Below are positions 5,066 to 7,346 of a stretch of 33,499 nucleotides of DNA, one piece after another. The translations under genes and the position numbers were made by a program. Where the stretch lies: the NCBI GenBank assembly GCA_903893135.1, contig CAITLA010000011.1:1-33499 (forward strand), read 5' to 3'. The number at the start of each line of letters is the position of its first letter. Position 1 is the stretch's first letter. The notes under the pieces were generated by a model. It was not told where the DNA came from. It saw only the letters and a list, made by a program, of their open reading frames with translations, and made no database searches. This DNA is from an uncultured Syntrophaceae bacterium. Lineage in GTDB: Bacteria > Desulfobacterota > Syntrophia > Syntrophales > UBA2185.

Positions 5066-5503
5066 CTAACCCTGTCCCAATAATTTTGCGGCTTCAGCCA
5101 TGGCTTGCGGCTCCTTGAGTCTTGCCAGTTCCTGCGGTGATTCCTGAAAATTTTCAAGGGCGTTGAAGAAACGGTCGAGGACATCACCGCTGTGAGTCGG
5201 AATCAATAAGAGATGGGTGTGGGGAATTCTTCTGCCCCGCGCATAGAGAAAAATGAAATCAGGCTCGAATTTGTCCATCATCCGGTTGGCGACGACCTTC
5301 GCCACCTTGAAAAGGCTTGCATTTTCTTCATCGGAGAGCTCGTGCCACCACTGGACATGCCGCTTTGAAATCACCAGGCAGTGACCCTTTGTGTAAGGTT
5401 GGATATCCAGTATGCACACGGACAGCTCATCTTCGTGGATCTTGTAGGCATGCGCCTTCCCCTCTATAATGTCGCAGAATACGCAGCTTTTCTTCTTTTC
5501 CAT
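5066..5503 (-). CDS. HIT-family nucleotide-binding protein with altered histidine triad
   Basis: A 145-residue protein with the HIT fold layout: N-terminal CVFCDIIEGKAHAYKI, then VCILDIQPYTKGHCLVISKRH, and a C-terminal triad region reading RRIPHTHLLLIP. HIT proteins bind nucleoside phosphates and hydrolyse or transfer at the alpha phosphate, using the middle histidine of HxHxH as nucleophile. Here the triad is H-T-H-L-L: the first and the nucleophilic histidines are present but the third is leucine, so activity may be altered. CVFC resembles the metal-binding CxxC of some HIT proteins. AAAAGGGG precedes the ATG. It lies 83 bases downstream of the dynamin-like gene on the same strand and could be read through from it. 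Confidence 0.85.
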   Translation of the reverse strand: MEKKKSCVFCDIIEGKAHAYKIHEDELSVCILDIQPYTKGHCLVISKRHVQWWHELSDEENASLFKVAKVVANRMMDKFEPDFIFLYARGRRIPHTHLLLIPTHSGDVLDRFFNALENFQESPQELARLKEPQAMAEAAKLLGQG

Positions 5504-5586: not shown

Positions 5587-7266
5587 TTAAGCTATTAAGC
5601 GCTGCAATCCTCCTTGGAGTTTCTTGATGGTCTCATTGATCTCATCTGTTTGACCATGCGTCTTCGATAACAAGGCGTCTATGGTAGAGAGTTCCTCTTT
5701 TACGTAATTAATCGCCTGTTTTCGCATTTCTTCAATAGCCCTGTTGATCCGGTCCTCCCACTGGGCGGCAAGACGGGAAAGATTAGCCTCCACTTCATGG
5801 GGAATCTCGCTAATAAAATGTTTCTCAAAAAGACCCCTGAAGATAATCATAGGAATGAGAAACCAGATGAGATCGAAATGGAAGTCAAATGATCTTATCG
5901 TCTTGATGTCGGGGTGATCGGGTTCTGATACCTCAATTTTCCAGTCTGCGGGAGCAAGCCTCACACCAAGAACCTTTTCGATATTTTTATCCAAGAGATT
6001 CCTGAAGGATTCAATTGATCTGGATAAACTGGCGTGGGCCTTGTTAAGAGTGCCATAGAAATGTCTATGCTCTATTTTGGAAATATGCCTCATCTCCTCC
6101 GTCATGCGGTCTGCAAGCCATTCTTCGTACCTCCGGGTGAGTTTCCAGAGATTCACTTTCCACATGAAAAGCTCCTTTTCCAAATCCAGAGAGAGTTTCC
6201 TCCTAAGAGGTTTCTGAAAATTATCAAGGTAATTCATAATGAGGGTTCGAGTTTGTCTCTGGTTCTCGCGGGCAATGATGGTTAGTTCCTCACGTATGAG
6301 ATCAAAATTGACCTTTTCATCGAAGATTTGTTTATGAAGATTCTCACGGTCAAGGTCAGCCTGCACAGATGTTTTCAGGGCAATATCGAGATAGCCGAGA
6401 CAACCTCTTATCAGGGACTGCATTTTGTACTGGAGGATTTTCCTGAACTCGAAATCACGGTTTAAGGACAACATGGAGAGAAGACCTGTTTCCAATCGAT
6501 CCTTGTATTGTTCCGTATTCACAAGGGTCGAGTATACATAGATCGGTAATCGCCGGTTTAATTCACGCTGAATCGTTCGCTCAAAAAATTCTATGACTTC
6601 GTTCTGCTGTTCCGGGGAGAGAAGATCAGTTTTTGTCAAAAGGAGCACGATATTCGGCGTGTGCCGTGTTAGCTCCCGAATCAGTTGCACATCATTTTCC
6701 GAAAGCGGACGATCGGAGCTTATGGCAAGTAAGGCAGTCCCCACTTGGGGAAGCCAATTTTCAGAGGTTTCCACATGATATTTGAACACACTTCCCAAGC
6801 CAGGGGTATCCACCAACCGCAGACCTGCATAATCCCTGAGAGACGGAAGCTCAATATCCACAACCTCTACGTTTTTTTTATTGGATGGATTTTCGGCTTC
6901 CGAGGTAAAAGCTTCAATATCGTTAATGGCAATCTCCGATGTGTTGCCGTCGAAATACCTGACAACGGCTTGTTCTTTTTCCCCATATTGAAGGCGGGTA
7001 ATGACAGTAGTAACCGGTATGACGCCAACGGGGAGAACGGATTTGCCGATAAGGCTATTGATGAAGGAACTCTTGCCTGCCTTGAACTGACCGAGGATTG
7101 CCACATCAATAGGCTGGCTCTGGATAAGTAGTTTCTCGCAGGCTTCTATCTGGCGGTTCAGAGAAAGAATAGAAAATCTGGCGCAGAGATCAAGAACGTC
7201 TTTCAGCAGCCGCTGTGAAACATCCTGAATACGGGCTTTTGAGCCATTGTTGATTATGTCGGACAT
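5587..7266 (-). CDS. Bacterial dynamin-like GTPase
   Basis: A 559-residue large GTPase of the dynamin superfamily, predicted to bind and remodel or protect membranes in a GTP-dependent manner. Residues 59-67 (GQFKAGKSS) are the G1 P-loop, 85-90 (PVTTVI) hold the G2 threonine, 153-156 (DTPG) are G3 and 211-214 (TKTD) are G4. Residues 250-450 are long charged helices consistent with a stalk. Residues about 464-484 form a hydrophobic stretch (DLIWFLIPMIIFRGLF), a likely membrane-contacting paddle, followed by an amphipathic helical end. The start at 7266 is chosen over upstream codons because GGAGGAG lies 7 bases before it. The leader carries a fluoride riboswitch and terminator hairpin, so expression is likely induced by fluoride. 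The HIT gene follows on the same strand. Bacterial dynamins often come as side-by-side pairs; this one stands alone. Confidence 0.9.
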   Translation of the reverse strand: MSDIINNGSKARIQDVSQRLLKDVLDLCARFSILSLNRQIEACEKLLIQSQPIDVAILGQFKAGKSSFINSLIGKSVLPVGVIPVTTVITRLQYGEKEQAVVRYFDGNTSEIAINDIEAFTSEAENPSNKKNVEVVDIELPSLRDYAGLRLVDTPGLGSVFKYHVETSENWLPQVGTALLAISSDRPLSENDVQLIRELTRHTPNIVLLLTKTDLLSPEQQNEVIEFFERTIQRELNRRLPIYVYSTLVNTEQYKDRLETGLLSMLSLNRDFEFRKILQYKMQSLIRGCLGYLDIALKTSVQADLDRENLHKQIFDEKVNFDLIREELTIIARENQRQTRTLIMNYLDNFQKPLRRKLSLDLEKELFMWKVNLWKLTRRYEEWLADRMTEEMRHISKIEHRHFYGTLNKAHASLSRSIESFRNLLDKNIEKVLGVRLAPADWKIEVSEPDHPDIKTIRSFDFHFDLIWFLIPMIIFRGLFEKHFISEIPHEVEANLSRLAAQWEDRINRAIEEMRKQAINYVKEELSTIDALLSKTHGQTDEINETIKKLQGGLQRLIA

Positions 7267-7271
7267 AAAAA

Positions 7272-7304
7272 AACTCCTCCAGAATAAGCCCACTGGTAGG
7301 AGTT
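7272..7304 (-). terminator. Riboswitch-controlled terminator hairpin overlapping the ribosome binding site
   Basis: On the minus strand AACTCC-TA-CCAG, a 10-base loop and CTGG-A-GGAGTT form a 10-bp stem with a small internal bulge, followed at once by a run of seven T (7273-7267) that abuts the ATG of the dynamin-like gene. The 5' half is also the 3' strand of aptamer helix P1, and the 3' half contains the GGAGGAG Shine-Dalgarno. The hairpin and the fluoride-bound aptamer are therefore mutually exclusive, and the hairpin would both stop transcription and hide the ribosome binding site. Confidence 0.75.
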
Positions 7305-7346
7305 ATCAGCCTTGCGGCGGTTTGTTAGGAGGCGAACTCCATCACC
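7293..7346 (-). promoter_or_regulatory. Fluoride riboswitch aptamer (crcB motif)
   Basis: Read on the minus strand the leader contains GGTGATGGAGTTCGCC, then AAACCGCC, a GCAA tetraloop, GGCTGAT and AACTCCTAC. This is the order and spacing of the crcB/fluoride aptamer. P1 pairs GGAGTT (7340-7335) with AACTCC (7304-7299); P3 is GCC-GCAA-GGC (7318-7309); the pseudoknot can pair GGTG with CGCC. The conserved GATG, the AAAC preceding P3 and CTGAT...CTCCTAC are all present. The family senses free fluoride bound through Mg ions. The controlled gene is the dynamin-like GTPase whose ATG is at 7266. A TTGACA at 7383-7378 could be a -35 box, but no convincing -10 follows it. Confidence 0.9.

Follow-up and report, generated by a model that had tools for sequence, protein, structure and literature searches.

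The stretch of DNA analysed here, referred to as the window, is 33,499 nt long and is part of a 2.96-Mb draft genome of an uncultured Syntrophaceae bacterium (313 contigs, 99.99% complete, 5.86% contaminated). Its minus strand encodes a dynamin-like GTPase of 559 amino acids (5587..7266, stop codon included), which starts at the ATG at 7266-7264. The protein contains a Dynamin_N GTPase domain (PF00350, E 8.8e-24, 84.8 bits with a cut-off of 27), whose G1, G3 and G4 motifs read GQFKAGKS, DTPG and TKTD, and, as the one feature that might belong to a helical trunk or membrane tip, a hydrophobic stretch at residues 462-480. Likeness to known bacterial dynamin-like proteins is confined to the GTPase domain, stretches of which match IniA (6j72), a GTP-binding protein (5owv) and a bacterial dynamin-like protein (2j68) with E-values of 1e-14 to 1e-11. 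A structure model built from a four-sequence alignment reached a pLDDT of 34.7 and a pTM of 0.21, values too low for reading the fold. The closest named relatives stem from Syntrophaceae metagenome bins and share 93, 89 and 89% protein identity. Two more dynamin-like frames lie close together in the same genome (G000:C208:10814-12605), in which the only fluoride riboswitch match is that of the window. A metallo-beta-lactamase-fold gene precedes the GTPase gene, and the next gene on the same strand encodes a HIT-domain protein (5066..5503, PF01230, E 1e-14) that is possibly co-transcribed with it. A fixed co-operon role of the HIT gene was dropped, as it does not adjoin the GTPase gene in two related genomes (G077 and G081).

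Upstream of the GTPase gene, positions 7355-7290 of the minus strand were identified by cmscan as a fluoride riboswitch aptamer (crcB motif, RF01734) with 53.4 bits, an E-value of 2.8e-12 and a gathering threshold of 34. The match covers the full model from 1 to 64, end to end, and is the sole RF01734 match in the genome. By its sequence the aptamer is a canonical fluoride riboswitch and would be expected to respond to fluoride. According to the structure line of the Rfam alignment, P1 is formed by GGUG (7346-7343) and CGCC (7334-7331). These strands enclose a loop that holds GGAGUU (7340-7335), the 5' strand of the pseudoknot, a role assigned following an excerpt of PMC11077080. GGAGUU is complementary at six of six positions to AACUCC (7304-7299), the pseudoknot 3' strand. 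The original prediction had rightly proposed that AACUCC can pair with either of two GGAGUU strands; it placed the first of them within P1, and the alignment reassigns that pairing to the pseudoknot.

The second partner of AACUCC is GGAGUU 7277-7272, an equally complementary sequence in the strand of the ribosome binding site. Pairing of the two forms the base of a predicted intrinsic terminator and SD-sequestering hairpin (7304-7272), in which AACUCC also acts as the anti-SD. Its 5' side consists of AACUCCU (7304-7298), a bulged A (7297) and CCAG (7296-7293). A 10-nt loop is followed by CUGG (7282-7279) and AGGAGUU (7278-7272), which results in 11 base pairs with one bulge. The hairpin has a calculated energy of -14.2 kcal/mol, equalled by one of 200 dinucleotide shuffles (z -2.9, RNAfold). 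The ribosome binding site GGAGGAG (7280-7274) lies within the 3' arm (7282-7272) at a distance of 7 nt from the ATG, and a run of seven U (7273-7267) touches the start codon. Two of these seven U are paired in the hairpin, and a five-U tail remains. The positions of AACTCC, of GGAGTT in the aptamer and of GGAGGAG, the T-run and the ATG downstream were all confirmed, and sequence and 11-bp hairpin agree with the proposal that the terminator's 3' strand is itself the ribosome site. A simple terminator scan limited to loops of 3-8 nt did not list the hairpin, whose loop has 10 nt. The pattern GGAGNTTTTTTN{0,4}ATG has two matches in the 2.96-Mb genome, one of which is the window leader, and the reversed control has one match. 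Hairpin and T7 are preserved in the four genus and family relatives that carry the GTPase gene, namely three congeners and one genome of the same family (G077, G078, G079 and G081), even as loop length and upper-stem bases differ among them.

The energies of the two states were compared at 37 °C by nested folding, the pseudoknot being entered as a plain duplex of -6.3 kcal/mol without a loop penalty. The pseudoknot form is favoured up to about nucleotide 80 of the RNA, the two forms nearly tie at nucleotide 81, and the hairpin form is favoured from about nucleotide 82. In the full-length RNA the hairpin form reaches -27.9 kcal/mol versus -21.8 kcal/mol for the pseudoknot form, a gap of about 6 kcal/mol before any pseudoknot penalty. 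Without ligand the hairpin should therefore win, and rescue must be co-transcriptional. This switch-over at about nucleotides 80-82, together with sequence and conservation, supports the earlier proposal that pseudoknot and terminator/SD hairpin are mutually exclusive.

The locus is best read as a fluoride-activated (ON) riboswitch that controls the dynamin-like GTPase via a dual expression platform, a reading to which we assign a probability of roughly 75%. Without fluoride, AACUCC would leave the pseudoknot and pair with GGAGUU of the ribosome-binding strand, and the hairpin with its U-run would terminate transcription just ahead of the ATG. In any read-through RNA, the ribosome site would be masked from the outset. 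With fluoride bound together with Mg2+, the pseudoknot would keep AACUCC and the hairpin would be unable to close, so that RNA polymerase would go on and the SD would be free. The decision would be taken co-transcriptionally, over the roughly 18 nt that are made from the moment AACUCC emerges until the U-run is complete, if the polymerase is assumed to cover about 14 nt. As far as its sequence allows a judgement, one helix can serve both termination and start-site masking.

To place this switch in context, RF01734 was searched in 155 genomes of the class and is present in 73 of them. After the four weakest rows (22.8-23.5 bits) were left out, 115 riboswitch sites were analysed, of which 52 precede a GTPase homologue and 32 an antiporter-like gene. 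The PF00999 label of the antiporters was checked on two proteins, one belonging to the class and the other from elsewhere. Searched from the other side, the GTPase was found at 56 places in 52 of the 155 genomes (E <= 1e-60), and 50 of these places have a same-strand riboswitch no more than 400 nt upstream. Four of the six misses are contig-end or broken-gene pieces (G131, G076 and twice G092), and one place (G150:C130) is without a riboswitch. At the last one, a degenerate aptamer with 22.8 bits and a broken pseudoknot strand (L135, G046:C1 490-561) lies upstream of an intact dynamin gene, which is a possible loss of the switch. Dynamin-linked and antiporter-linked switches occur together in 15 class genomes, in 12 of them within 15 kb. 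Other first genes behind class riboswitches encode a MutS_V-domain protein, an AAA/STAND-like ATPase, a HEAT-repeat protein and a 245-aa protein without a Pfam match (L050, L081, L051 and L047).

The linkage extends beyond the class. A search of 395 genomes of the phylum yielded 39 further GTPase places (E <= 1e-40), and 33 of them have a same-strand upstream riboswitch, down to about 25% identity (15/17 at >=53%, 9/10 at 37-40% and 9/12 at 25-36%). Three of the misses lie at a contig end (G187, G327:C32 and G504), and in G225, G258 and one of two places in G511 no riboswitch was found in the stretch scanned. Most of these riboswitches adjoin the gene; the distance to it is 0.6-2.3 kb in G341, G474, G305, G452, G469 and G329. 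One such locus (L138, G474:C245, 93-4108, minus strand) has the order riboswitch, CrcB, enolase and dynamin-like GTPase on one strand. The order in G305, G452 and G469 is riboswitch, antiporter, universal stress protein (Usp) and dynamin, and in G430 riboswitch, dynamin and enolase. Pfam was run on the G474 genes, the G305 antiporter and the G469 stress protein, and the other intervening genes were assigned by sequence likeness. In G341:C243 (L104) a frame of 267 aa stands between aptamer and dynamin gene. The linkage and the loci shared with CrcB, enolase and antiporters place the GTPase in the fluoride regulon many times over by position, and by gene position it is thus a predicted member of that regulon.

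What the GTPase does there can be approached by analogy. It would make cells more tolerant of fluoride, and the simplest way would be to remodel or protect the membrane, as other bacterial dynamins do. Some bacterial dynamins are described as drug-induced or membrane-guarding in excerpts of PMC6715688 and PMC8844932, while no fluoride control of bacterial dynamins is reported in the literature searched, unlike the control predicted for the window GTPase. Membrane defence is a first guess. Its main rival is that the dynamin is controlled like enolase, as a fluoride-sensitive enzyme that is overproduced when inhibited and not as a defence protein. Fluoride complexes bind to GTPases as mimics of phosphate, and the G1, G3 and G4 motif patterns are intact in all 56 family members. 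In addition, the sections seen of a 2024 review (PMC11139923) name enolase and pyrophosphatase as frequent riboswitch targets and state that fluoride inhibits enolase. A housekeeping target would not be expected to be missing from so many genomes, however; 103 of the 155 class genomes gave no hit for it at E <= 1e-60. Moreover, the GTPase can be the sole riboswitch gene, since 24 of the 49 class genomes with a dynamin-linked switch have no second fluoride riboswitch among the analysed sites. Enolase-like control is accordingly considered rather improbable. The wider proposal, that the dynamin-like GTPase family across the phylum is an unrecognised, directly fluoride-switched effector of fluoride defence, is put forward tentatively, with slightly less than even odds.

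Dynamin and antiporter genes of the class share the aptamer and appear to differ in what follows it. A T-run, defined as a stretch of five or more T within the 16 nt that precede the start, was scored in 62 dynamin leaders (49 from the class and 13 from outside) and 32 antiporter leaders. Four of 66 dynamin leaders had been excluded, three that got no start (G037, G053 and G070) and one that belongs to a C-terminal fragment (G149). The T-run is present in 41/62 dynamin versus 0/32 antiporter leaders (Fisher 3.9e-11, without a correction for common ancestry). The 21 dynamin leaders scored without it, which include G092 because of a misplaced start, mean that the terminator is not universal among them. 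Inspected by eye, G037, G053, G070 and G092 have GGAG and T6-T7, and none of them is counted among the 41. Short dynamin leaders make up 39 of the 62; 28 of these have a T-run, with a mean hairpin energy of -14.9 kcal/mol and a mean z of -4.3. Dynamins thus seem to be controlled mostly via hairpin and U-run, antiporters via SD pairing without a U-run.

As an anti-Shine-Dalgarno sequence in its own right, ACUCC pairs with any SD over four to five positions for free. The stem beyond these positions and the T-run are, by sequence, in excess of what such pairing supplies. Pure chance pairing was rejected since the stem reaches well past the SD and since the T-run is present in dynamin and absent from antiporter leaders. 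The best sign of selection on both pseudoknot and hairpin is the co-variation of all three strands (pseudoknot, shared strand and hairpin) in two leaders. They read GGGGUU / GACCCC / GGGGUU in G109 and GAAGUU / AACUUC / GAAGUU in G341 (L104), where GAAG/CUUC replaces GGAG/CUCC.

The dual control foreseen in the original prediction fares differently at its two levels. At the level of transcription it has good in-silico support from the distribution of the T-run. At the level of translation the case is weaker, as the unpaired probability of the window SD rises just from 0.0003 in the hairpin form to 0.285 with AACUCC withheld (equilibrium folding). In the same type of calculation, the SD opens by more than 0.3 in just 14 of 28 direct dual leaders. 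The translational half is plausible, with weak support from this calculated opening. It might be argued that the platform acts by termination only, with the SD placed in the hairpin for lack of space and masking adding nothing, since nearly all non-switching RNAs are already terminated. The strong hairpin and the U-run are in keeping with this, and the portion seen of PMC5435934 describes pT181, which has AGGAG in its terminator, as initially reported to be mainly transcriptional. Yet all 32 antiporter leaders and about one third of the dynamin leaders are without a T-run. Folding calculations with the pseudoknot strand left free show a paired SD in the 27 short-spacer antiporter leaders (mean 0.05 unpaired). 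The group thus evidently makes use of SD masking on its own, and many antiporter leaders extend this pairing, e.g. GATAACTCC ... GGAGTTATC. Termination only is for these reasons regarded as unlikely.

The opposite view, in which only translation is controlled and the U-run is an A/T-rich spacer with no real termination so near the ribosome site, is much less probable still. A coupled ribosome could hinder termination, and the antiporter leaders share the pairing without having a T-run. Against this stand the textbook hairpin with its U-run, at the frequencies given above for the two leader types, and the fact that aptamer-overlapping terminators are the described fluoride mechanism in the parts consulted of PMC11077080 and PMC2864571. 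A dual platform is hence preferred for the window. Some longer dynamin leaders, such as L067 (G016:C135), L069 (G003:C136) and L061 (G015:C19), repeat the pseudoknot strand in the pattern AACTCCTGC ... GCAGGAG ... ACTCCTGC ... GGAGGAGTTTTTT. A relay reading, in which the duplicated AACTCCTGC strand would hand the signal on to the terminator/SD hairpin, found no support, as the SD opened by more than 0.3 in just one of the 13 long dual leaders (equilibrium folding).

The layout had been considered unusually dense, a claim of novelty that finds no support. It occurs in most relatives, and Barrick and Breaker (2007) described, in the part seen of PMC2258182, terminators so near the ORF that their 3' side holds the RBS as dual expression platforms. 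Those examples are TPP, AdoCbl, FMN and lysine switches, whereas the switch in the window belongs to the fluoride class and would be an ON switch. An overlap between terminators and crcB RNAs was pointed out in 2010 (excerpt of PMC2864571). The fluoride switches of B. cereus and Thermotoga petrophila have the same aptamer, and their pseudoknot 3' strand likewise forms the terminator base (excerpt of PMC11077080). Compared with these transcriptional switches, the other terminator strand is here the ribosome site, the U-run touches the ATG and the target is a dynamin-like GTPase. The pT181 repC attenuator is controlled by antisense RNA (excerpt of PMC5435934), unlike the predicted ligand control in the window. 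The layout would add a clean natural ON switch to the dual-attenuation category, with the antiporter leaders as a built-in comparison.

The dynamin target, which the original prediction did not mention, is more surprising than the leader. The seen parts of the 2024 review (PMC11139923) name exporters, Na+/H+ antiporters, pyrophosphatase, haloacid-dehalogenase-like proteins, enolase and formate hydrogen lyase as targets, and contain neither 'dynamin' nor 'GTPase'. A full-text literature search returned no paper linking a fluoride riboswitch with dynamin, the gene list of Baker et al. 2012 aside, so the link looks new as far as this search reaches. The gene linkage matters more than the layout, as riboswitch regulons are reliable guides to fluoride biology. 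In some genomes, that of the window included, no gene but the GTPase was found behind a fluoride riboswitch, and if the proposal is true, fluoride stress gains a membrane-remodelling arm beside export and enzyme replacement. CrcB is present in 5 of the 155 class genomes and was not found in that of the window; PF00999 and CLC were found neither there nor in its three congeners, and G081 of the same family has a CLC. A fluoride exporter of another kind may exist in the window's genome. This raises the testable question of whether a fluoride-induced dynamin protects cells without a known fluoride exporter.

Two further arrangements of fluoride riboswitches were observed. One genome of the phylum sample (G423) has eleven matches, several of them on contig C58. 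Back-to-back divergent pairs, about 100-270 nt apart, occur at G148:C78:10799-11193, in L162 (G362, 164-414) and in L160 (G421, 125-457).
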